From positions 992,001 through 1,056,000 of the forward strand of contig NZ_JAKGTQ010000001.1 in assembly GCF_021568285.1 (NCBI RefSeq): 64,000 nucleotides of DNA. The letters run 5' to 3'. Position 1 is the stretch's first letter; every line of letters starts with the position of its first letter. The position numbers and the translations under genes are program-made. The notes beneath the pieces were generated by a model, which was not told where the DNA came from, made no database searches, and saw only the letters and a program-made list of their open reading frames with translations. Below, in pieces: positions 12,463 to 50,998 of the stretch. This DNA comes from Rheinheimera sp. UJ63. GTDB lineage: Bacteria > Pseudomonadota > Gammaproteobacteria > Enterobacterales > Alteromonadaceae.

Positions 12463-13061
12463 GTCAGATTTTTAAAGCCGGGTTAGTCTGCCCATTAGAT
12501 AAAAACAATGTGGATACGGATCAGATCATCCCAAAACAGTTTTTAACCTCAGTCAGCCGTGATGGTTTTGCCGAAGCGCTATTTTATGATTGGCGCTATG
12601 TGGCAGACGGCGTCCCGAATACCGACTTTGTGCTGAACTTCCCGCAATACCAAGGCGCGTCTATTTTGTTAACGCGGGCAAACTTTGGCTGTGGTTCAAG
12701 CCGCGAACATGCGCCGTGGGCACTGCAACAGTATGGTTTTCAAGTGATTATCGCCGAGAGCTTTGCCGATATTTTCTTTAATAACAGCGTGAATAACGGC
12801 ATGTTATTAATTCAGCTAAGCAAAACCAATATTGAACTGCTGTTTAAACGCTGTGCCCAAGGGCCGCAACAATGGCAGATCGATTTAGCTAGCCAAGAAA
12901 TTCTGTTTGGTAATAACGCCGCAATGGGATTTAGCATTGACCCAGATATTAAACAACGCTTATTAAGTGGCTTAGACTTTATCGGCTCCAGCGAGCAACT
13001 AGGTGCAGAAATTTCCGCCTTTGAAGCACAGCGCAAAGCCCGTTTACCCTGGTTAGGCTAA
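12459..13061 (+). CDS. leuD: 3-isopropylmalate dehydratase small subunit
   Basis: 200 residues, the swivel domain of isopropylmalate isomerase. Motifs: [13 protein letters not shown] about residues 18-30, and [13 protein letters not shown] about 77-89, which binds the substrate. The start ATG at 12459 overlaps the end of leuC (ATGA), so the subunits are made in step. Last gene of leuLABCD. Confidence 0.97.
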
Positions 13062-13071
13062 AACGGTATTC

Positions 13072-13105
13072 GTCACAAGCAGCCAATCATTTCGCTGCTT
13101 GTGAC
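13072..13105. terminator. hairpin between convergent leuD and the next gene
   Basis: 12-bp perfect stem GTCACAAGCAGC/GCTGCTTGTGAC with a 10-nt loop. Neither side has a good T-run, so it is a likely but imperfect bidirectional terminator. Confidence 0.5.
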
Positions 13106-13106
13106 A

Positions 13107-14072
13107 CTATTCTGGATTGACTAGCAATAGCATATTGCCAAACTCTAACATCTGCTCAGCGCTTTGCACCTGCTCTGGCCACTCACCTTGCTGTAACTGC
13201 ACAAAACTTAACGGTTGCTCTAATTTAAATTGAAAGGTTAACGCGCGCGGATCGGCCAAAAAAACCAATAACGGCTGGCTAATGGCACTCGGTAAGCTGG
13301 GATGCTGCGTTAAAAACTGCTCTAACTGCCCTTTTAACGCTTCCACTTGTGCGGTTTGCTCGGTTTGCCGGAGCGCCTGATACAAGGCTTGTAAAAATCC
13401 CCCATTAACGATATTCAACTGCCCTTCTGCTACTAAACCTTCGGTTAAGGCTTGTGTTAACTGCTGACTATAAGCATCCGACTGACTGAATACTTGCTGC
13501 GCTTCAGCGTCCATCGCCGTCCACTGTTTGGCAAACTGCCAAAACCGCTGCATCTTTTGCATCTGCAATTGAAAATTTACCGAGAAGCCCTCGCCAATAT
13601 ACAATTGCTGCGTTAAACGCAAGTTGCCGCTTTTCCCCGAGTAATGATATTGATAATCCGTATTGATGAATAAGCCTTTGGCGAGTTTGGCCAACTCGGG
13701 CGGCAAAAACACCTGCATCCCGTCAGAGAGTTTTAACCCCACAATCGATACCTGACCATTATCGGCTAACGTACCCGGCTCAAAGCCACGTACTTGCAGC
13801 TGCGCTACTTCTGCCAAAACACCGACGGCCGCCACATCAACTTGAACACCTTCAATCCGGTAATCATCTTGCCAATAATTGGCTTTAATCCGCTGATAGC
13901 TCAAACTTAGCCCAGGCATCAAGCCAGCAGACGCCATTTCAGCATAAGATTGGTTAATATAGTCAATTTGCTGGCCAATGATCTTAGCCGCTTGGTAATT
14001 AACATACTGATAGATAGCCACGCAAACCACTGCGGCTAAGCCAATGCCTAATAACAGTTTATTCTTTCGCAT
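13107..14072 (-). CDS. membrane-anchored periplasmic protein of unknown function
   Basis: 321 residues from ATG 14072; the TTG at 14078 in the same frame is less likely. One N-terminal membrane helix (KLLLGIGLAAVVCVAIYQYV) is followed by a large soluble region with beta-rich and Gln-rich helical parts and no catalytic motif I recognise. The layout (anchor plus secreted domain) resembles DUF945/YdgA-type envelope proteins, but the similarity I can see is only architectural. Monocistronic, convergent with leuD. Confidence 0.6.
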   Translation of the reverse strand: MRKNKLLLGIGLAAVVCVAIYQYVNYQAAKIIGQQIDYINQSYAEMASAGLMPGLSLSYQRIKANYWQDDYRIEGVQVDVAAVGVLAEVAQLQVRGFEPGTLADNGQVSIVGLKLSDGMQVFLPPELAKLAKGLFINTDYQYHYSGKSGNLRLTQQLYIGEGFSVNFQLQMQKMQRFWQFAKQWTAMDAEAQQVFSQSDAYSQQLTQALTEGLVAEGQLNIVNGGFLQALYQALRQTEQTAQVEALKGQLEQFLTQHPSLPSAISQPLLVFLADPRALTFQFKLEQPLSFVQLQQGEWPEQVQSAEQMLEFGNMLLLVNPE

Positions 14073-14268
14073 ACTCAAACCAACCCCAAAAAAATCTTGC
14101 CTACCATAGGCGATGTGCCGCGAAAAGTCATGCGCTTTGTCGACACAGGTTCGACCTTTATGTATTTGTTAGATTAACCTGCTGCGATTTACAGCAAAGG
14201 ATGTTGCCACAGCACCATCAATGTTAAAATGCATGCCGCTCGCCATACCAGACAGGACGGATAACGCA

Positions 14269-14901
14269 GTGACAGACTATTTCCATTGGTTCGATTTATT
14301 AGGCATCGCTGTATTTGCTGTGTCGGGTACTTTGGCAGCATGGCGTAATCACATGGATGGCTTCGGCGTGATTGTATTAGCCACCGTTACCGCCATTGGC
14401 GGCGGAACACTGCGCGATCTCATTTTAGATGTGCCGGTGATCTGGATGAACAATAATAGCTATTTTTTTGCCATCTTTGCCGCAGCCGGTGCCACCATCT
14501 TACTGGTACGTAATCGTCTGACCATTCCCAATAATACGTTACAAATTGCCGATGCCATTGGGCTGGCCTTTTTTGTGATTATGGGTACGCAAAAAGCGCT
14601 GGATCACGGCACCTCGACCATGGTGGCCATTATGCTCGGCACCATGAGCGGCGTGTGTGGTGGCATGATCCGTGATGTACTGTGCCGGGAGATCCCCATG
14701 GTGTTTCGCGGCGAGCTGTATGCTTTTACCTGTATTTTTGGTGGTGCGGTGTATACCAGCCTATTGGCGCTGCATATCGCCCCTATTTATGCCATGCTCG
14801 CCGGTATGACAAGCCTGCTATTACTGCGCTTAGCCGCCATTAAATGGCAACTGACCATTCCGGTATTTGGCCGCAACTCTCAGGAGTTGAACGAGCCTTA
14901 A
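14269..14901 (+). CDS. TRIC-type (YicG/UPF0126) membrane channel
   Basis: About 210 residues with seven membrane helices arranged as two repeats. Each repeat carries a glycine-rich signature: AIGGGTLRDLILD about residues 42-54 and GVCGGMIRDVL about 127-137. These match E. coli YicG and the trimeric intracellular cation channel family, which conduct K+ or similar cations. I start at GTG 14269 because the family begins at this point (YFHWFDLLGIAVFAVSG). An ATG at 14221 in frame would add 16 residues not seen in homologues. The specific ion is not known. Confidence 0.8.
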   Translation: MTDYFHWFDLLGIAVFAVSGTLAAWRNHMDGFGVIVLATVTAIGGGTLRDLILDVPVIWMNNNSYFFAIFAAAGATILLVRNRLTIPNNTLQIADAIGLAFFVIMGTQKALDHGTSTMVAIMLGTMSGVCGGMIRDVLCREIPMVFRGELYAFTCIFGGAVYTSLLALHIAPIYAMLAGMTSLLLLRLAAIKWQLTIPVFGRNSQELNEP

Positions 14902-23259: not shown

Positions 23260-23880
23260 ATGACCACCTACACTACCCTGGCCGCGCCGGTTGAGCATCG
23301 GCTCACTGAAAAGAACAGTGATTTTCTGACCTTTTTGCAGCCGATCACTGATCGTGAGATCGCCTTGCAGTGGCTACAGCATTATCGTGAACGCTACAAA
23401 GATGCTAATCACGTATGCTGGGCCTATATTATTGGCAATACTCGCCAGCCTTTAACCCAAGCCTTTAGTGATGATGGCGAGCCCAGCGGCACCGCCGGTA
23501 AACCGATGTTGCATGTACTAACTGAGCGCGAATTAGGTAATACCTTGGCCGTAGTCGTGCGCTATTTTGGTGGGGTGAAACTGGGTGCGGGTGGCCTGGT
23601 GCGCGCTTACTCGGCTGCGGTGTCGCAAGCCGCTAATTTAGCTGAGTTAACCACTGTTAGCCCGCAAAGCGAGTTAACCGTTCGGGTTAGTTTCGCCGCT
23701 GAAGCCCGCTTGCGACAAATGCTACAGCAATACGGCGGTGAAGTCTTAGCGATTCGGTATCAACAACAAGTGGAGATCAGTATTCGCCTACCCGAGCAGG
23801 CCGAGGATGAGTTTATGCAACAACTGAATAATCTGACCGCCGGCCAAGCGCAGATCATCACCCCCTCTTGCAGCAAGTAA
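23260..23880 (+). CDS. yigZ: YigZ/IMPACT family protein
   Basis: 206 residues. An N-terminal UPF0029/IMPACT domain carries the signature FSDDGEPSGTAGKPML followed by VVVRYFGGVKLGAGGLVRAY about residues 69-115. The C-terminal part is an EF-G domain V-like fold. It matches E. coli YigZ. The biochemical role in bacteria is not settled. TATAAT at 23217-23222 may be its own -10, but no -35 is obvious. Confidence 0.92.
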   Translation: MTTYTTLAAPVEHRLTEKNSDFLTFLQPITDREIALQWLQHYRERYKDANHVCWAYIIGNTRQPLTQAFSDDGEPSGTAGKPMLHVLTERELGNTLAVVVRYFGGVKLGAGGLVRAYSAAVSQAANLAELTTVSPQSELTVRVSFAAEARLRQMLQQYGGEVLAIRYQQQVEISIRLPEQAEDEFMQQLNNLTAGQAQIITPSCSK

Positions 23881-27627: not shown

Positions 27628-27640
27628 ACAGGAAATGCTT

Positions 27641-30600
27641 ATGTCACAATTACTTCGTATTGTGCTGATCCATACCCACCTGCCCGGTGTGGTCGAATTA
27701 CAGTTGGATCAACACACCAATATTTGTGGTACCAATGCCTCAGGCAAAACCACCTTACAACGCTTAGTGCCGGTATTTTATGGTGAGCAGCCCAACCGCG
27801 TAGTACCGAAAACCCGTAAAAAATTCGATGAATTTTACCTGCCGTTTTCTAACAGCTACTTAATTTATGAATATCAGCGCGAGAGCGGTGATATTTGCCA
27901 AGTGGTACTGACCCGGAAAAGCGAAGGCGGTGTTGACTATCGCTTAGTGGCCGCGGCTTATCAAAGCGACTTTTACCTGACGCAAAGCGATGAAGGCGTA
28001 AAAGCACTCAGTTACAGCGATTGGGCCAGTGCCATGCGCGCTCGGCCGGATGTGCAAGTGTCAGCCAAAATCAGTGCCACCAGCGAGTACCGCAGTATTA
28101 TTCAAAATGATGCGGCGGCATTGCGTGGTAACAACGCCGATAGCGTAAAGCTAAGGCGTTTAGCCGCAACCTTTAGCTTGGTTAGCAGTGGCCATAAATT
28201 ACGCCACATTGAAAAGCTGGTGAGCGCCGTGCATGCCAAAGAAGGCAAAATGGACACGCTAAAAGCCATGCTGGCCGCTATTTTTGAGGAAGATGGCGTT
28301 ACCTTACCTACCACTAAGGTTAAAAACACCAAGGCGCGCGAGTGGATCCAGCAAATGCGTCAGTCGATGCGGTTGGACAAGCTACAACAAGATTTTGAGC
28401 GCTTAAAGCAATTAGCACTGCAGTTAGATGGCGCCGAAGGGCAGCTCAGTGCATTGTTACCGTTGTTACAACAAGATGAGCAACAGCAGAAACTGCGTAA
28501 GGCCGATGCCGAACAGCAGGTTAATCAGTTACGGGGTGAACTGCTGGTGTTAAAAGAACACTTTAATGCACAGCAACTTGAACACAATGGCAAACTGAGT
28601 AAAACCGAAGCCGATTTGCATGAAACCAGTGCGCGTTTAGATCAGTTACAACAGCGTTTCGATGATTATGACGCCAAAGATATGCCTAAGCTGCAACGCG
28701 ATACTGATGCTCTGCCCCTGTGGCGCGACACCTTGCAAGAAGTGGTCGAGCAGTATCAATTAATGGTGGAACAGCATGGTGATTTAGAACGGCAGTTAGA
28801 ACAGCGCAAAGCCAAACTGGCCGAAGCGTTTAATCGCTTAAGTGAGCAGCATCGTGCCAAAGCGCGGCAATTACAGCAGCAAAAAGACCAGACGCGGGAG
28901 CAGCAAGAAAACAAACTGGCGCTACTCGAACAAAGCTTTCAAAGCCGCTTACAACAAGCCCAACAACAATTTGCGGACCAACTGACGCAACTGAGCAGTG
29001 CCATTGCCGTACTTCAAAGCCAGTTGAATACTTCCCCCCTCACCGAAGCTGAACACGATGAATTGCGTGCGGCCGAACTGCGTTTAGAGCAAGCCCAGCA
29101 GCAAGCCCAACAGCAAGCTCGGCAACTCCAGCAGTTGCAACAACAGCATCAAAAGGCTCGGCAAGAGCGTGAACAGGCTAATCAGCAGTTAGAGCAAAGC
29201 CGCAAGGGGCTGCATAGCGCCGAGCAACAATTACAGCAACTCAACCGACAACTGACACCGGAACAAGGAAGTTTGCGCCACTACTTGCGCTTGCACTATA
29301 ACGGCTGGGAGCAAAAGCTAGGCAAGGTGATCGATGAGCGCTTATTAGAACGCCAAGACTTACAGCCGCATTTGGCGGAATTGAGCGACAGCCTCTATGG
29401 TTTAAAGGTAGATCTCAGCGCCATTGATACCCCCGATTATGCACAAGATGAAGCGGCCATTCGCCATCGTATTCAAACGGCAGAGCAACAGCTACAACAA
29501 GCCCAGGCCAACAAGCTGCAAGCCGAAAAGCTATTAAAAGAGCGTTTCGAACAGGCCGAGCTGTGTCGTGCTCAAGTGGAGCAAGCCGAGTGGCAACTCA
29601 CTCAATCTGAACAAAACATTGACTATGCCCGTGACGCTCGCAATCGTTTACAAGCACAGCAACGCGAATTAACCAAACAACGGCAAAGCAGTGTGCGCGA
29701 TACGTTGCAAAGCCAGCAGCAACAACTGGAAAAATTAAAGCAGCAGCAACAAGCTGATTTAGGCGCGCTAAAAGAAGATCATCAAAGCCAAAAGCTTGAA
29801 TTAAAAACCGACTGGCAAGCAGAGTTATACGTTTTTGATGAACAAATTGACGAATTAGAGCGTCAACTTGAGCACAAACGCGACGATAACAAAAATCAAA
29901 TTAAAGACCTGCAACAAGCCTTTAATGAAGAGTTATCGGCAAAAGGCATTGATCCGCGTCGTTTAACTGAGCTGAAGCAAAAACAAGATCAGCTAAAAAC
30001 TGACATCAAAGCCACAGAGAATCGTCATGATGAACTGAATAATTGGCAAAAATTTATGGCGCTGGATTGGCAACAATTGCGGCCCCAGTTGCTCGCTCAA
30101 GAAACCGAATTAAAACAACAACAACGCAGCGGTAAACAAGCTTTAGAGCAGTTAAAAGCAGAATACAGTGCTCGCCAAAAGCAGCTAGAAGAACAAAAAC
30201 GCCAGCAACAAGAGTTGATGAGCCAAGCAGAACAGTTACTTAACCAATTAAAACCGGTACTCACTAAACTGCAAGAACTGCATTTAGCCAGTATTACCCC
30301 TGCAACCATGGCACCGTCTGCCGACAGTGTTGAGCGCTTAGCTCGCGCCAATGAAGCCTTAGAGCAGCGTAGCAAATTGGATAGCGCTTTAAAATTTGCC
30401 TTCGAGCAGTTTGAAACCGTGCTGAGCAAAGATGCTGGCCCAGAGTTTTTAGACCGGCTCGAGCATGAAAAACGCAAATTGCCGGATTACGCCGGTAAAC
30501 GCCAACAACTGCCTATTTTGCAAAACCTGCTAGAAATCTTAAAAGGTGCGCAGCAGCAATTACTTGAAATGGGCGAGAACATTGGCGGCGATTTAAAGAA

Positions 30601-31306
30601 ATTCTTCACGGTGTTTAGTGATATTAACCGCCGTATTGCGCTGCAAAGCCGCCGGTTAAGTGAAGCGGTGGCGGATGATCTGGTACTAGAAGGCATTAGC
30701 CGCTCTGAAGTACGTATTTTATCAACCATTGACGAGTTGGGCTTTTGGCAACCATTGAAACAGTTCGCCAAATTGTATGATGATTGGGCGGCGTCAGGTA
30801 AGGCATTGCCATCAGAACATTATTTGAATGCCCTAGCTGATGTGGTCGATTTACTGCGCGCTGACGAGCAATACAGCATCGAATCGCTGCTCAGGTTAGA
30901 GCTACATTTAAGCGAAGGGGGCTCGGAATTAGTCATTAAAAACGATCGGCAACTGCTGGAATCGTCTAGTCATGGTATGGCTTACCTGATTTTATGTAAG
31001 TACTTATTGGCGTTCACCCGTCTCTTACGTGGCGAAGCTAAAGTGATGATCCATTGGCCGATTGATGAAATTGGCACCTTGGCCTACCACAACGTCGAAA
31101 AACTGTTTGCGGCCTGTAGCAGCAACGATATTGTCATTGTGGGAGCTTTCCCTAATCCAGAATCCGACGTGTTAATGCTGTTTCAACATCGCTATTTAAT
31201 TGAGCCGAGCCAACAAGATCCAAGCCAGCGCCAGCTTAAACGCATTCAGCCGAAAGTCAGTCGTTTAGCCGAGCGATTAGCCCAGAAACAGCAGGAGGTA
31301 AGCTAA
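27641..31306 (+). CDS. SMC/MukB-like ATPase of a Wadjet/MksBEFG-like operon (JetC/MksB-like)
   Basis: 1221 residues from ATG 27641 (AGGAAA 5 nt upstream). ATPase head: Walker A GTNASGKTT at 30-38. Two long Gln-rich coiled coils run about 245-540 and 610-1000. Between them is a compact hinge, about 541-598, with LRHYLRLHYNGWEQKLGKVI and SLYGLKVDLSAID, a pattern I associate with DUF3584/JetC-like proteins. At the C-terminus are an ABC-signature-like SSSHGMAYL (about 1108-1116) and a Walker B with catalytic Glu in MIHWPIDEIG (Asp1142, Glu1143). It would form a DNA-extruding dimer with the next two proteins. It is not RecN or SbcC by hinge and partners. Family call is from memory of motifs. Confidence 0.8.
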   Translation: MSQLLRIVLIHTHLPGVVELQLDQHTNICGTNASGKTTLQRLVPVFYGEQPNRVVPKTRKKFDEFYLPFSNSYLIYEYQRESGDICQVVLTRKSEGGVDYRLVAAAYQSDFYLTQSDEGVKALSYSDWASAMRARPDVQVSAKISATSEYRSIIQNDAAALRGNNADSVKLRRLAATFSLVSSGHKLRHIEKLVSAVHAKEGKMDTLKAMLAAIFEEDGVTLPTTKVKNTKAREWIQQMRQSMRLDKLQQDFERLKQLALQLDGAEGQLSALLPLLQQDEQQQKLRKADAEQQVNQLRGELLVLKEHFNAQQLEHNGKLSKTEADLHETSARLDQLQQRFDDYDAKDMPKLQRDTDALPLWRDTLQEVVEQYQLMVEQHGDLERQLEQRKAKLAEAFNRLSEQHRAKARQLQQQKDQTREQQENKLALLEQSFQSRLQQAQQQFADQLTQLSSAIAVLQSQLNTSPLTEAEHDELRAAELRLEQAQQQAQQQARQLQQLQQQHQKARQEREQANQQLEQSRKGLHSAEQQLQQLNRQLTPEQGSLRHYLRLHYNGWEQKLGKVIDERLLERQDLQPHLAELSDSLYGLKVDLSAIDTPDYAQDEAAIRHRIQTAEQQLQQAQANKLQAEKLLKERFEQAELCRAQVEQAEWQLTQSEQNIDYARDARNRLQAQQRELTKQRQSSVRDTLQSQQQQLEKLKQQQQADLGALKEDHQSQKLELKTDWQAELYVFDEQIDELERQLEHKRDDNKNQIKDLQQAFNEELSAKGIDPRRLTELKQKQDQLKTDIKATENRHDELNNWQKFMALDWQQLRPQLLAQETELKQQQRSGKQALEQLKAEYSARQKQLEEQKRQQQELMSQAEQLLNQLKPVLTKLQELHLASITPATMAPSADSVERLARANEALEQRSKLDSALKFAFEQFETVLSKDAGPEFLDRLEHEKRKLPDYAGKRQQLPILQNLLEILKGAQQQLLEMGENIGGDLKKFFTVFSDINRRIALQSRRLSEAVADDLVLEGISRSEVRILSTIDELGFWQPLKQFAKLYDDWAASGKALPSEHYLNALADVVDLLRADEQYSIESLLRLELHLSEGGSELVIKNDRQLLESSSHGMAYLILCKYLLAFTRLLRGEAKVMIHWPIDEIGTLAYHNVEKLFAACSSNDIVIVGAFPNPESDVLMLFQHRYLIEPSQQDPSQRQLKRIQPKVSRLAERLAQKQQEVS

Positions 31307-31926
31307 TGTTACAACATGGACCTTTATTAGAGCGCCTGCTGGCCGGTGATTTTATTTGTCAGATCACTGATGAAGATGCTTATCGGCATTTAAGCCAAGA
31401 ACAAACGCAGCAAGAGATTAACCATTATTTACGCCCACTGAATCGCCGCTTAGTCAGTAACGATGATCACAGTGTGTATTTCTTAGGGTTTCATGAGCTA
31501 ACTAAAGAGGCACGTGAACACTTAAGCAGCCAATTTTCTTTAACCGTACAATCTTTGCTGCCGTTATTAGAGTGGCTACAACTGGTGCAAGAAACCTTAG
31601 GCCGCGACAGTGCGCTGACCGCTGGTGATACGATTAAATTGCAAGAGTTTGTGCTGCGCACCGAAGATAACCAAAGCTTGCGCCAGCGTTTAAATACGCT
31701 TGCCAGCGATCGCTTTTTTAATAGCCAAAGCGAGCAGTTAGATAACCAGGTTAAACTGATTTTCCGCCGCTTAAAAGAGCACGGTTACTTATTACAACCT
31801 CATGCTGAACGCCAGTACTATGTGGTTACCGGTAAAATTGATTACCTTATTGATCTCATTCGTTTTATCCGCGATGAAGAGCATTTGCCGGTTGATGACA
31901 CCCCCACTCAAGAGGCGCTGATCTAA
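31306..31926 (+). CDS. MukE/JetB/MksE-like winged-helix partner of the SMC-like ATPase
   Basis: 206 residues, no membrane or catalytic motif. It looks like two small winged-helix units. The first is LLERLLAGDFICQITDEDAY to NRRLVSNDDHSVYFLGF (about 7-62); the second includes VKLIFRRLKEHGYLLQP and a strand RQYYVVTGKIDYLIDLIRFI (about 148-188). This is how MukE and DUF4194 proteins look. Size, position after the SMC gene and TAATG coupling support the call; sequence similarity itself is weak. Start at 31306 overlaps the preceding stop. Confidence 0.65.
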   Translation: MLQHGPLLERLLAGDFICQITDEDAYRHLSQEQTQQEINHYLRPLNRRLVSNDDHSVYFLGFHELTKEAREHLSSQFSLTVQSLLPLLEWLQLVQETLGRDSALTAGDTIKLQEFVLRTEDNQSLRQRLNTLASDRFFNSQSEQLDNQVKLIFRRLKEHGYLLQPHAERQYYVVTGKIDYLIDLIRFIRDEEHLPVDDTPTQEALI

Positions 31927-33167
31927 TGGCGCCTTTAGAACCGGCTATCGCTTCAAACCTATTTAGCATCGGCGCTGAACGTTTAGCGTTATTGGGCAAG
32001 CATCATAAAGCCTTGATGCAAGGTTATGTCGATGGCTTTATTGACGAAAGTGCTTTTAGCGAAGGGGCGTTAAAAAAACTGATTGCTGCGCGCATCTTAT
32101 GGCGCCCAGATGAACAGCAACCGTTGGCGCTACGGCCATTAGTTAGTGAATTAATTGCCAGTATGGTGGCTGATGAAAACCGCCGTCAGATCAATGCCGA
32201 CGTTGCTGAAAAGCTAGAGCAGATCCGCAACCGAGTACAAGCCTATCGTGATGCCCAGTTTAAAGGCGATTACAGCGTGGCCGAGCTACAACTGCAACGC
32301 TTAACCGAACATGTGCATGACTTAAGTGGCCAGTTTGAAGAAGCCATCGACAGCTTATGGCATCGGCTTAACAGCGACTTTGGCTTTGTCAGTAGCCTCG
32401 ATGATAAAATTCGTGAAAACGAACGCGCGCAAAAACAATTACGCCGCTTACTCGATGGTTTAGATTTACTCGACTTTCACGAACTGATTGAGTTGTCGGA
32501 AGGAAATAATCACCTGCGAAAACTGCTGGTCAGTCAATTGCAAAACCAATTAAGCTCGCATCACAGCAGCTTATTAGAAGTACAAAAACGCTTGGTCGAA
32601 CTGCTGGCAAAATTCCGCCAACAACAAGCCCGCTCGTTGTTAATTGCTAATATGGCCGCGTTTTTACGGCAGCACCCTAAATATCAGCCTGCCGATTATC
32701 CTCATCGCAGCGACGTGCCTAGCTTGTTTAACCAAGCTGCCAGTATTAAACCGCAAGCCGCCATTGCGCTAGATAAGGCCACAGAGCGACAAGTGCTGGC
32801 AGAATTAGTTAGAGCACTACCACGCCCAAGCAGCGTGACCATAACCGATACACAAAGCGCCAGCTTTAGCTTGCTGCTGCAAGACGAAGAAATTGCTGCG
32901 CGTCAGCAAGCGCTGAAAACGGATGTTGAAAACTTTTATCTGCGGGTGATTGATCAAGGCGGCAAGATCAGTGCCTTAGATTATCTGAGCACTCAGCAAT
33001 TAAGCTGGGATAGCGAGATCTGGCTGTATCAGATCATAGCCGAATATCAGGCGTTACCGCTGGATGAAAAACAGATGTTTAGCATCACACGCGAAGAAGC
33101 CCCAGCCAGTGCCTTTAACGGCCTGTTGCTGATCCGCGATATTAATATTGGTTTAAAGGCAGCCTAA
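31926..33167 (+). CDS. MukF/JetA/MksF-like kleisin candidate
   Basis: 413 residues, soluble and largely helical. The N-terminal part (about 1-80) resembles a winged helix (GALKKLIAARILWRPDEQQPLALRP). Long helices follow (VAEKLEQIRNRVQAYRDAQF, KQLRRLLDGLDLLDFHELIEL, and about 205-240). The C-terminal beta-containing region, about 300-413, could be the ATPase-cap winged helix. This order matches MukF/DUF3375 kleisins that bridge the two SMC heads. No catalytic motif is seen. Coupled on both sides by TAATG. Confidence 0.6.
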   Translation: MAPLEPAIASNLFSIGAERLALLGKHHKALMQGYVDGFIDESAFSEGALKKLIAARILWRPDEQQPLALRPLVSELIASMVADENRRQINADVAEKLEQIRNRVQAYRDAQFKGDYSVAELQLQRLTEHVHDLSGQFEEAIDSLWHRLNSDFGFVSSLDDKIRENERAQKQLRRLLDGLDLLDFHELIELSEGNNHLRKLLVSQLQNQLSSHHSSLLEVQKRLVELLAKFRQQQARSLLIANMAAFLRQHPKYQPADYPHRSDVPSLFNQAASIKPQAAIALDKATERQVLAELVRALPRPSSVTITDTQSASFSLLLQDEEIAARQQALKTDVENFYLRVIDQGGKISALDYLSTQQLSWDSEIWLYQIIAEYQALPLDEKQMFSITREEAPASAFNGLLLIRDINIGLKAA

Positions 33168-34027
33168 TGCAGGCGGCACTCGGCTTACAGGCGCTGAACT
33201 GGCTGGCACAGCTAGAGCAGCGCCTTAAGCGCGATGGTCAGGTTGCCATTAGCAGCAAGGGCAAAGTCGCTCGACAAGTTATTGCTTGGTGTATCGAGCA
33301 ACAGTTACTGCCAAGCCACAGCGCCAACTTACCCGTTGTGCAGTTTAATCTGGCACTATTAGCACACATTGCCGAAGCACAACTGCAATTACAGCAAGTT
33401 TGTTTTCGCGCTAAGGTCAGTGAGCAAGATCGGCTGCAGCAAGCAGAGTACGCTAACCAAGAGCTGAAAAGTGCCGGGGCTAGCCCGCGACAAACCAGAG
33501 TATTGCTGAGGCTGAATACTGCCATCTCGCAAGCGGGGTTAACCATAGCAACCGTTGATCTTGATTGGCGTGAGCTGCAGCTAGGCGATTATGACGCCTT
33601 AGTCATCGTCGAAAACCTCGATTGTTTTTATCAGCTCACGCGCTTTCGCTTACACCACCGCTACCCAAACCCGCTGGTGATCTATCGGGGCGATAGCCAC
33701 TATAGTAGCGGTGGAAAAGCCCTGAACGACGCATGGCAACACACCGGCAAACCTAGCCTGTATTTTGGTGATGCCGATTTAGCGGGGTTAGCTATTGCCT
33801 TTAGCCTGCACTGCCAAAGCATCCTGTTACCTGAGTTTGCACAGTTTAAGCAATGTGCTAGCGTCGACATGCAGGCTGATCAGCAATTAAAGTATCAAGA
33901 TCAGCTGTTACGCGCAGAGGTTCATCCCGCATTTAAACCCTATCAACAGCTTATTTGTCAGCAATTAAAGGGCTTGCGCCAGCAGCAAATGCAAGGCTTG
34001 GCGCTTTATGCCATTAACTTGCGCTAA
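33167..34027 (+). CDS. TOPRIM-domain protein, JetD/MksG-like nuclease candidate
   Basis: 286 residues. The C-terminal half is a TOPRIM-like fold: DALVIVENLDCFYQL (Glu149), the middle strand LVIYRGDSHYSSGG, then LYFGDADLAGLAIA with the DxD pair Asp202 and Asp204. This matches the order E...G...DxDxxG of JetD (DUF2220), the plasmid-cleaving subunit of Wadjet. The N-terminal 130 residues are helical and DNA-binding-like (SSKGKVARQVIAWCIEQQLL). It is about 100 residues shorter than JetD proteins I know. Last gene of the coupled operon. Confidence 0.7.
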   Translation: MQAALGLQALNWLAQLEQRLKRDGQVAISSKGKVARQVIAWCIEQQLLPSHSANLPVVQFNLALLAHIAEAQLQLQQVCFRAKVSEQDRLQQAEYANQELKSAGASPRQTRVLLRLNTAISQAGLTIATVDLDWRELQLGDYDALVIVENLDCFYQLTRFRLHHRYPNPLVIYRGDSHYSSGGKALNDAWQHTGKPSLYFGDADLAGLAIAFSLHCQSILLPEFAQFKQCASVDMQADQQLKYQDQLLRAEVHPAFKPYQQLICQQLKGLRQQQMQGLALYAINLR

Positions 34028-47779: not shown

Positions 47780-50700
47780 TTAGTCGGCCGTAAACAGCGC
47801 CAGCAAGTCTTCGGCTTGGCCTTGCCATACTTGGCCTTTGCCACCACCCAGTAACTGATCCGATAAGCCCTGCTTATACTGCTGTAATTTTTGTACTTTT
47901 TCTTCAACGGTATTGCGGGCAATCAGCTTGTATACAAACACCACTTTGTCTTGACCAATGCGATGCGCCCGATCGGTCGCTTGGTTTTCAGCAGCGGGGT
48001 TCCACCATGGATCGTAATGAATAACGGTATCGGCGGCGGTTAAATTCAACCCTGTGCCACCGGCTTTTAAGCTGATCAAAAAGACTTCCGTTTCACCATT
48101 TTGGAAGGCATCAATCTGCTGCTGTCGTTGCTTGGTTTGCCCCGTTAATTTACTGTAGCTAATGCCCATGTATTGCAGCTCTTGCTCGATTAAATGCAGC
48201 ATGCTGGCAAACTGACTAAACAGTAATACGCGCCGCCCTTCTTCAATCATTTCAGGCAAGTTTTCTCTTAACCAGCTGAGCTTGGCGTTGTGCTTCACTA
48301 GTTGCGCTTGTTCAATGGGTACTAAGCGCGCATCACAACAAGCTTGACGCAGTTTTAATAAGGCATCTAAAAACTCAATTTGACTGGCCGCTACGCCCTT
48401 GCGCAAAAACAGCTCGCGCACTTTGGTTTCCATAATTAAGCGGATGCTTTCGTACAGATTGCGTTGGTCCGCTTCTAATTCGAGTAGTTGTAATATCTCG
48501 TTTTTCTCAGGTAACTCGGTGGCGACCTGGCTTTTACTGCGCCGCAGCATAAAAGGCGCGATTTTTTGTTTTAACACCTGAGCACGTTCGGTATCCGCAT
48601 GCTTTTCTATCGGCTTACGATACACCTGATTAAAATGCGCTTCGGTACCCAGTAAGCCCGGTAACACAAAATCAAATAACGACTTTAACTCGCCTAAATG
48701 GTTCTCTAACGGCGTACCCGATAACGCTAAACTAAATTCACGTTTTAACGCCCGCACACTTTGCGCTGCCTGACTGCCCGCATTTTTAATATGCTGCGCC
48801 TCATCCAGTATCACTAAACTAAATTCGCACTGGCGATATAAATGCAGATCTCGCACTAACAATGGGTAGCTGGTTACAATTACGTCAAAGTCATCCATTT
48901 GCTCGAACAACGGCCGACGTTTAGCGCCGTAAAGCTGCAGCAAAGATAACTCAGGTGTAAAGCGAGCGGCTTCGTTTTGCCAATTGCCTAATAACGACGT
49001 GGGGCAAACAATTAATGCCGGCTTTTTTAAACGCCCTTGTTGTTTTTCATACAACATAAAGCTGAGCGCTTGTAAGGTTTTACCCAGGCCCATATCATCG
49101 GCTAACACGCCACCTAAACCAAAGCAGCGTAAAAACACCAGCCAGTTAAAGCCCTGCTGCTGATAAGAGCGCAACACGGCATTTAAGCCGCTGGGCAAGG
49201 CCACTTCTTCTATACCTTGGAAATTATGCAGTTGCTCACTTAACCGAGTTAAACGGTTAGCATTTAAATATTGAATCTCAGCTGCACCAGGCGGGGGTAA
49301 GATGGCGGCCTTATAATCCGGTAACTCCAAGGTTAACGGCGACTTTTGTAAATTGAGTAATTCAACGATGGTATCAATCAGCGGCTGAATTAATTGCATC
49401 GGCAAGGCTAATTTGCCCTGTGGCAAACTAAGCCAAATGGTTTGGCCGCTCACTGGTAAACCATATTGCCGCAGCCATTGGCTGATTAACGGTAATAACG
49501 GCACTTGCTGGCCGTTCACATCCACTTGGATACCTAATTCAAAGCCACTTTGCTTACCATCTTGTACTTGCAAATACGGCGTGGCATCGAGGATCTGCAA
49601 ATTAAAATCGGCGGCTTGCTCTACCTGCCAGCCTTGCTGTTGCAAGGTATCAAGCTCCGCCAATAACGGCTGCCATAACTCTGGGTTATCTGGGCCATCG
49701 CCAACATCAAAAGCAGCTAAACGTTCAGCAGGCGGGGCAAGCTCGCAACTAACTAATCCCAGTGCTAACAATTGCTCTAGTGCTGCCACTTCGTTTTCAC
49801 GTTGGCGTTTAATAAACAAGGTTTGATCTGGCAGGCTGATTTCGGTTTGCGCTTGTTTTAAATCGAGTGGTAGCCGCTGTCCGGCATAATCAAAATACAA
49901 TAAGGCGGTGGGTCGTGCCGCTGCATTTGCTTGTTGCACACGCATTTGTAATGCTAGCACCGGAGTGGGGGCAACCGTCACTTGCTGCACGGCAACACCC
50001 TTAGGTACAGGCAAGCTCACTTCTTTAAATAACTGCTGTAATTGCCCCAACCGCGATGATAATTGTTTTAGTGGGATCACCGGCATTTTGGCTAAGAGTT
50101 TAAGCTCGCGCGCACTTAAAGGCGTGTTAACTTCGCCTAGCGAATAATGATCGGTATTTAAGTAACACAGCGGTTCAGTAAAAATAAGATGGTTGGCTTC
50201 ATCATCGGCAATTTGCCAGTGCAGTCGCTGGCCATTTTCGTGCTCTTGCCAATACAGCGACAAATCCTTTGGCTCTTGCCAGGTTAATTCATGCCGAGCC
50301 TCACCAAAAAAACAGCGGCCGGTGGCGAAAAAGGCCTGCAGTAACTCATAGCCCCAGCGGCCTTCTAACACATGCTGATCTTGTGGGTTATGCGAGCGAA
50401 ACACCGTAAGCAAACGATAGTCTTCGGCACTGAGCCAGCTTGGCGGTTGCGGTGCCACCAGATCGTATTTTCCTAAAGGCTGACCTTTACTATAGCCACC
50501 CTTTTTCAAAATTTTCACCCGCCGCGGATACAATTGTAAGCCACTGTGACCGTAGCTCAGCAGATACAGCATGGTATCTTCAACTATTTCTTTGTTGGGT
50601 GCTTGCTGTTGTTCCACCTCGGCAAACCAATTATCGACCTGCAGCATGGGTAATTGCTTAACCCGTAATTGTTGCTGCGCATAATCACGCTTTAAGCGCA

Positions 50701-50998
50701 ATAACACCGCCAACACATGCTTGCAGCGAAAACCAACAGGGCAGCTACAACGCGCTTCTAATTGCCAACGACCATGATGCTGTTCTAAAGACAAATGTTG
50801 CCGATAAGGCGCAAAGCCCGCTCCCCATACTTGGGCACTGATCTCACTTAAATCATCATTGTATTCGAGCTTCAACACCTTACCGGCCTGCAAATAGGCC
50901 TTCGCGCGGTGGATAGTGGCAGTGTCAAACCATTGCGTCAGGTTCGCATCGCTTAGCGGGAATAAATTGGTGTCTTCACCTTTGGTGTGATCAGTCAA
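47780..50998 (-). CDS. SNF2-family helicase with SWIM zinc finger
   Basis: 1072 residues. The N-terminal SWIM motif CSCPVGFRCKH (Cys84, Cys86, Cys92, His94) could bind DNA or protein. A long middle domain follows, then the two RecA-like lobes: Walker A DDMGLGKTLQALSFML about 630-645, ALIVCPTSLLGNW, DEAQHIKNAGSQAAQ (DEAQ box), LALSGTPLENHLGEL, VLLFSQFASMLHLIEQEL, LISLKAGGTGLNLTAADTV and the arginine-finger region QATDRAHRIGQ. It is likely a DNA-translocating ATPase in repair or transcription recycling (RapA/HepA relatives). No nuclease partner is adjacent. Confidence 0.93.
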   Translation of the reverse strand: MTDHTKGEDTNLFPLSDANLTQWFDTATIHRAKAYLQAGKVLKLEYNDDLSEISAQVWGAGFAPYRQHLSLEQHHGRWQLEARCSCPVGFRCKHVLAVLLRLKRDYAQQQLRVKQLPMLQVDNWFAEVEQQQAPNKEIVEDTMLYLLSYGHSGLQLYPRRVKILKKGGYSKGQPLGKYDLVAPQPPSWLSAEDYRLLTVFRSHNPQDQHVLEGRWGYELLQAFFATGRCFFGEARHELTWQEPKDLSLYWQEHENGQRLHWQIADDEANHLIFTEPLCYLNTDHYSLGEVNTPLSARELKLLAKMPVIPLKQLSSRLGQLQQLFKEVSLPVPKGVAVQQVTVAPTPVLALQMRVQQANAAARPTALLYFDYAGQRLPLDLKQAQTEISLPDQTLFIKRQRENEVAALEQLLALGLVSCELAPPAERLAAFDVGDGPDNPELWQPLLAELDTLQQQGWQVEQAADFNLQILDATPYLQVQDGKQSGFELGIQVDVNGQQVPLLPLISQWLRQYGLPVSGQTIWLSLPQGKLALPMQLIQPLIDTIVELLNLQKSPLTLELPDYKAAILPPPGAAEIQYLNANRLTRLSEQLHNFQGIEEVALPSGLNAVLRSYQQQGFNWLVFLRCFGLGGVLADDMGLGKTLQALSFMLYEKQQGRLKKPALIVCPTSLLGNWQNEAARFTPELSLLQLYGAKRRPLFEQMDDFDVIVTSYPLLVRDLHLYRQCEFSLVILDEAQHIKNAGSQAAQSVRALKREFSLALSGTPLENHLGELKSLFDFVLPGLLGTEAHFNQVYRKPIEKHADTERAQVLKQKIAPFMLRRSKSQVATELPEKNEILQLLELEADQRNLYESIRLIMETKVRELFLRKGVAASQIEFLDALLKLRQACCDARLVPIEQAQLVKHNAKLSWLRENLPEMIEEGRRVLLFSQFASMLHLIEQELQYMGISYSKLTGQTKQRQQQIDAFQNGETEVFLISLKAGGTGLNLTAADTVIHYDPWWNPAAENQATDRAHRIGQDKVVFVYKLIARNTVEEKVQKLQQYKQGLSDQLLGGGKGQVWQGQAEDLLALFTAD

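Follow-up and report, generated by a model that had tools for sequence, protein, structure and literature searches.

Results

Architecture of the operon

A 64,000 nucleotide stretch of the genome of Rheinheimera sp. UJ63 (contig NZ_JAKGTQ010000001.1), referred to here as the window, was analysed for an operon encoding an SMC-type ATPase, a KITE subunit, a probable kleisin and a TOPRIM nuclease. Four open reading frames (ORFs) were confirmed on the + strand (Table 1), the first of them extending over 27635-31306 (1223 amino acids, aa) when read from its first ATG. The start at 27641, given also in a preliminary description of this DNA, is likely to be the better one, since an AGGA lies upstream with fitting spacing and the Met at this start (M3) is nearly invariant in an alignment of 13 homologues. 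The same description had the four frames joined by TAATG, and this is read at all three junctions. The genes stand in the order SMC-KITE-kleisin-TOPRIM, the reversed order that had been proposed, unlike mksFEBG. The same succession of SMC, KITE and kleisin holds at all 40 loci that were retrieved elsewhere in the family (Alteromonadaceae), a sample of 40 of the 54 other carriers. Chance or an annotation artefact is ruled out by this equal order together with the full-length match of the SMC described below.

Table 1. Features of the operon in the window
Feature	Position	Strand	Remarks
SMC ATPase (MksB/JetC role)	27641..31306	+	1221 aa from ATG 27641; DUF3584 819 bits, invariant motifs
KITE subunit (MksE/JetB role)	31306..31926	+	206 aa; DUF4194 24.6 bits, MksE/DUF4194 matches in family members
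Probable kleisin (MukF/JetA role)	31926..33167	+	413 aa; fold matches to MukF
TOPRIM nuclease (MksG/JetD role)	33167..34027	+	286 aa; E149, D202, D204
TAATG junctions	31304..31308 (SMC/KITE), 31924-31928, 33165-33169	+	one-base stop/start overlap at each

The four proteins

The SMC is matched by Pfam DUF3584 (PF12128) over residues 10-1190, and DUF3584 is the only Pfam family that matches it up to E 1. In an alignment of 13 diverse SMCs the P-loop GTNASGKTT, the DE of Walker B and SSSHGMAY are invariant. SSSHGMAYL appears to occupy the position expected for the ABC signature. Profile searches for solved relatives of the SMC returned weak hits only, coiled-coil-like in appearance. Membership in MukBEF was considered and rejected, as no MukB match to the SMC was found up to E 1 and MukB (PF04310) is over cut-off in none of 118 family genomes, in which one weak match was seen.

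The KITE of the window stays under the DUF4194 cut-off of 32.7 bits and has no match to MksE (PF21980) at E<=0.05. Among 17 members of its protein family, 13 match MksE PF21980 and 10 match DUF4194 at E<=0.05. A profile search for solved relatives gave one irrelevant chain only. In the kleisin candidate the N-terminal part is helical and includes a short pair of strands; the rest is made up of long helices, a poorly predicted linker and a C-terminal helix-strand domain. Compared by fold, the protein comes closest to chains of MukF entries, and it is a probable MukF/JetA-like kleisin; by profile, nothing meaningful was obtained against solved structures, and PADLOC gave no match. DUF3375 is presumably the JetA kleisin family. 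The MksE and DUF4194 matches in relatives and the MukF fold matches agree with the earlier assignment of the 206- and 413-aa proteins as MukE-like and kleisin subunits, the latter as a probable one.

For the TOPRIM protein, a Pfam scan to E 1 returned DUF7281 and JetD_C (PF09983) only, JetD_C being over cut-off, and no DUF3322 arm was detected in its 286 aa by the same scan. The protein has a fold of the Topo VI-A/MksG/JetD type with a conserved Glu and DxD, and both an alignment of 18 homologues and one of 53 show E149, D202 and D204 without variation. Its profile found Spo11 (E 0.019) and MksG (E 0.026) among solved structures, both weakly. The fold, the JetD_C match and the invariant residues bear out the TOPRIM nuclease of the preliminary description, as one of Topo VI-A/JetD type, and the motifs listed there (GTNASGKTT, PIDE, Glu149, GDADLAG) are all present. 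In G392, a member of the same class, DUF7281 occurs at three places, including C1:1604478-1604884 and 3483631-3484218; two of them are adjacent and are apparently pieces of a broken second copy.

Repeated loss of the nuclease

Profile searches of the 40 family loci showed 9 intact TOPRIM genes behind the kleisin and a single remnant. Nothing was detectable in the other 30; in L032, which is among these, a 24-residue trace came to light later. Within the genus of the window a kleisin is present in 28 of 31 genomes, the remaining 3 having no kleisin match. In these 28 the TOPRIM gene is intact in 20, reduced to coding fragments in 5 and without coding remains in 3. The eight genomes without an intact nuclease thus comprise five with fragments, one with a clean excision and two without trace. 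The excision, in Arsukibacterium tuosuense (L077), is near-exact when mapped against intact relatives. Differing internal or terminal deletions were found in R. pacifica DSM 17616 (L080), R. pacifica BIGb0367 (L081), R. oceanensis (L084) and the metagenome-assembled genomes L087 and L088, and no trace was left in L097 and L098. Besides the two traceless genomes, there are six distinct deletion patterns, or five if the sisters L081 and L084, whose first loss event might be shared, have one in common.

On a KITE-plus-kleisin tree with 27 rows from the genus and 3 from outgroups, at least six changes in nuclease state are required, five of them forced by well-supported branches. This was the second tree of the genus, and L099 (54% identical, on a very long branch) had been dropped from it together with two remote outgroup rows. 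A wider tree of 86 rows, from which near-identical loci had been thinned and in which 45 rows have the nuclease, needs 16 state changes, 11 of them forced.

Among named relatives, the best 80 of 407 confirmed relatives were scanned, a sample biased to close kin, and three of the contigs end before the kleisin. The other 77 loci include a kleisin; 62 have the nuclease and 15 are without it. Homologues are therefore not always without the TOPRIM gene, a possibility raised in the preliminary description.

JetD_C was not found elsewhere in the eight nuclease-less genus genomes, though the model also misses true members of the family, nor anywhere in the three operon-less ones. A replacement effector behind the kleisin was considered as well. 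Ten genes scanned there in nuclease-less loci included no JetD-kind nuclease; they encode a transporter, an NYN-LOTUS protein, an HDOD/EAL protein, a deacetylase, a pseudouridine synthase, two TerB-like proteins (one under cut-off) and three proteins without a family. In 12 of 31 nuclease-less loci no same-strand ORF of >=110 aa lies within 800 nt behind the kleisin. A small-gene cluster directly follows the kleisin in six nuclease-less loci (L060:12722-13141, L061:10529-11011, L052, L063, L067 and L070); four of its members were scanned, with one TerB match over cut-off and one under.

At a wider scale than the genus, state changes could also be attributed to gain, if a three-gene condensin were ancestral and had picked up DUF7281 nucleases. 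The L050-L071 group is in line with this: the nuclease is missing in 21 of 22 loci and all three other genes are kept. Its single nuclease-bearing tip is L068 (G096), with the gene behind the kleisin at 12521-13375, which is either an old survivor or a regain. In the genus, however, fragments or breakpoints lie at the exact place of the nuclease in 6 of the 8 nuclease-less genomes, as loss would leave them. This counter-evidence is confined to the genus, and the direction at the deepest split may be read either way. Gain on such a scale is considered very improbable.

Retention and constraint of the motor genes

KITE (206 aa) and kleisin (413-421 aa) are full in all 28 genus genomes, the presence of a kleisin being the entry condition for this count. 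The SMC has full length in all 21 genus genomes in which it was seen whole, seven of them nuclease-less; in the eighth nuclease-less genome (L098) it was not seen whole. These 21 genomes were paired with whole-SMC loci via identical KITE and kleisin sequences. Outside the genus, the kleisin ORF of L126 has 263 aa only.

Pairwise ratios of nonsynonymous to synonymous substitution rates (dN/dS) of the SMC were 0.025-0.059 (13 of 14 pairs giving a number). In three pairs where both genomes are without the nuclease, the values were 0.026, 0.026 and 0.031. Set against neighbouring genes, some of which recur across pairs, the SMC had the lower dN/dS within its pair in 30 of 34 comparisons. The motor genes are thus under strong constraint in the genus. 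For the TOPRIM gene, nuclease-bearing pairs yielded 0.115-0.308, and the kleisin had 0.014-0.073 in these pairs, with one kleisin outlier of 0.212 in a nuclease-bearing pair; among the ten TOPRIM pairs analysed, one had entered twice, under two names, and one was saturated. Measured in this way, the nuclease outpaces the kleisin of its own pair by a factor of about 2 to 22. A fast-evolving and often-deleted nuclease fits an arms-race or a costly part of the machine. A docking patch for the nuclease was sought among residues relaxed after its loss, and the 6 KITE and 15 kleisin positions obtained were scattered, with no clear signal.

The trio seems, from these sequence comparisons, to have value without the nuclease. 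One rival explanation is a purely anti-plasmid or anti-phage defence, a distant Wadjet type whose nuclease-less copies are dying systems heading for complete loss. In the genus only the nuclease was seen broken, the L050-L071 group keeps the other three genes without it, and SMC dN/dS is about 0.03. These observations speak against such a pure defence system, and the evidence in its favour comes from relatives elsewhere (see below). The opposite explanation is a purely chromosomal condensin of the MksBEF type, with the TOPRIM protein as a decatenase or DNA-repair helper. Near-universal presence in the genus, low dN/dS and stability of three genes without the fourth would all be explained by it, and the TOPRIM fold is common to Topo VI-A. 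Against it stands the dN/dS of the nuclease relative to that of the kleisin, as expected of an immunity gene. Moreover, no Topo VI-B-kind ATPase partner was found among the operon and the nearest neighbours scanned.

Distribution and inheritance in the family

DUF3584 is over cut-off in 55 of the 118 family genomes. ScpA was found in 111 of them, including the window's own and all 55 DUF3584 carriers, and because of this the operon is to be seen as an addition to Smc-ScpAB and not as a substitute. Presence tends to follow the genus. Among 35 genera with at least two sampled species, 12 consist of carriers only, 17 have none and 6 are mixed (29 of 35 all-or-none); over 5000 shuffles the mean was 25 mixed genera and the minimum 15. 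At the three loci L035-L037, of which L036 is Alkalimonas amylolytica L101, the operon has homologues of the window genes at 23260 and 40486 on its flanks. Near neighbours differ in other genus members, and L032 and L034 adjoin homologues of the window genes at 13107-14901. Within the family the operon looks like a chromosomal element with mostly vertical inheritance. Outside the family its occurrence is sporadic; among 274 genomes from across the class, 7 have DUF3584 over cut-off and 8 have DUF7281.

Relatives elsewhere and defence context

The surroundings of the operon in the window do not look like a defence island. PADLOC was run on ten window proteins and nine were without a match. The tenth, 14 kb from the operon, is a 1072-aa SNF2-type helicase (47783-50998, - strand) that matches DpdE with 820 bits, best over residues 440-1050, and also ZorD; it may be an ordinary SNF2 helicase.

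In E. coli, relatives were found in 11 of 5426 complete genomes, all chromosomal, by a near-identity search with an E. albertii copy as query, which more distant copies would escape. In the one island scanned with PADLOC, Shango (SngA-C), AbiE and PDC-S06 adjoin the operon, and integrases are annotated. Five of the 11 copies have four full ORFs and the other six are lesioned in SMC (3), KITE (2) or TOPRIM (3). The gsp/yghD genes lie beside the island in the two copies (among L182, L183 and L184-L192) read far enough, and 7 of the 11 have a frameshift annotated in the ATPase gene of the adjacent Shango-like system.

Names given to relatives at NCBI include 'condensin complex protein MksE' and 'Wadjet anti-phage system protein JetD domain-containing'. 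Plasmid relatives were obtained in 10 records with one query and in 8 with another. In the copy of an IncC plasmid (NZ_OR497351.1; L181:3349-11099) the SMC gene is split by an insertion sequence. This copy lies near a Tn7-like TnsD gene and annotated ThiF, Mov34 and SAVED genes, which we take to be CBASS-like.

All four genes are present in the 209 kb Dolichospermum phage Dfl-JY45 (L180:4684-11039; PP438435.1 86907-93262). Its SMC matches DUF3584 with 653 bits, MksE is over cut-off, the kleisin is 30% identical to that of the window and the nuclease reaches 116.8 bits for DUF7281 with the acidic residues kept. This phage was the sole match among 50,697 phage records searched with three protein queries, and 21 pattern stretches of viral contigs contained no relatives. 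The phage-borne condensin-nuclease merits separate study.

The integrase-bearing island with Shango and AbiE, decay of the E. coli copies in several subunits, and plasmid and phage carriage are what a pure defence system would predict. The JetD_C match, the weak PADLOC matches to JetB, JetC and JetD, and the 3 of 31 genus genomes without any kleisin match point the same way. Weighed against the retention of the motor genes described above, pure defence is regarded as unlikely. Carriage on island, plasmid and phage together with the nuclease argues against the purely chromosomal condensin too, and that explanation seems quite improbable.

Discussion

Judged by its sequence, the operon is a diverged machine of the MksBEFG/Wadjet class and probably works like MksBEFG/Wadjet. 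With Wadjet JetABCD it shares an SMC, a KITE, a probable kleisin and a TOPRIM nuclease in four adjacent genes, as well as the JetD C-terminal TOPRIM domain PF09983 over the Pfam cut-off. It differs in that the gene order departs from A-B-C-D (the order in types II and III being outside this comparison), that no JetD/MksG DUF3322 arm is detected and that the set persists without the nuclease. The operon is set apart from Wadjet types I-III because gene order and DUF3322 arm do not fit and the comparisons with JetA and JetB decide neither way. PADLOC matches to Wadjet (JetB, JetC, JetD) are weak, with a best E of 5.7e-7; that of the SMC to JetC3 has E 8e-6. With the kleisin unmatched, these values confirm that the proteins are far from known Wadjet.

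The order mksFEBG is described for MksBEFG of Corynebacterium glutamicum, and as conserved also in Pseudomonas, in passages of PMC10123090. The window differs from that system in its SMC-KITE-kleisin-nuclease order and in the missing arm. With MksBEF of P. aeruginosa, as portrayed in parts of PMC7485682, it has in common a Muk-like condensin beside Smc; nuclease loss here is repeated and occurs between sister species, the sequence families of the two lying outside the comparison. With MukBEF of E. coli it probably shares the MukF-like kleisin fold, whereas its SMC matches DUF3584 and not MukB.

In the literature searched, 'DUF7281' occurs in no paper, no 'DUF3584' paper on this system was found as far as listed, and no paper was found on this family or its loss of the nuclease; Doron 2018, Deep 2022 and Petrushenko 2011 lay outside the search and may hold an earlier description. 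The candidate for an undescribed defence system in the preliminary description holds as far as a diverged Wadjet-like class is concerned, but it is not entirely undescribed, since parts already have names (DUF3584, MksE, DUF7281, JetD_C). The defence role itself has the E. coli relatives beside defence genes on its side, and on the other side the window is not island-like, carriage in the genus reaches 28 of 31 and the nuclease is the part that is lost. A pure defence reading is only half supported.

We consider it probable that the operon encodes an accessory condensin carrying an anti-plasmid nuclease that can be shed, and that its motor also serves the chromosome. Complex formation, loop extrusion, plasmid cutting and the chromosome role are what we infer, as follows. 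An SMC dimer with KITE and kleisin would extrude DNA loops at the expense of ATP, carrying the TOPRIM protein along as a nuclease of the Topo VI-A/JetD type. In four-gene genomes small circular DNA would be reeled in and cut after extrusion is completed. Alongside Smc-ScpAB, the same motor would also serve as an accessory condensin of the chromosome, and this second job would explain why the motor genes are under strong selection despite deletion of the nuclease.

Reconstituted Wadjet extrudes loops, and its nuclease is triggered once a small circle is fully reeled in, according to passages of PMC10586767 and PMC12647877. By analogy, the trio of the window may extrude loops and trigger its nuclease on small circles. 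A chromosome role is reported for P. aeruginosa MksBEF in portions of PMC7485682 and of the review PMC10586767. Such a role would be the simplest account of the trio's apparent value without the nuclease.

The machine of the window can tentatively be regarded as a two-job condensin, in which one motor is used for chromosome upkeep and, via the detachable nuclease, for plasmid defence, and in which a lineage would change from one state to the other simply by dropping the nuclease gene. According to a section of the review PMC10586767, a likely or speculative origin of nuclease-free condensins such as MksBEF (perhaps MukBEF too) is a defence machine that lost its nuclease. Jointly with the two-job reading, and with the same reserve, the Rheinheimera group may show the proposed step from Wadjet to MksBEF about six times, mostly recent enough for scars to remain.

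The proposed step from defence to condensin would here be recent and repeated, and would lie between sister species of which one has the nuclease and the other lacks it. The host bacteria are culturable environmental organisms. The question thereby becomes testable through deletions and swaps. Labelling loci of this kind plainly as defence, or plainly as condensin, may mislead.

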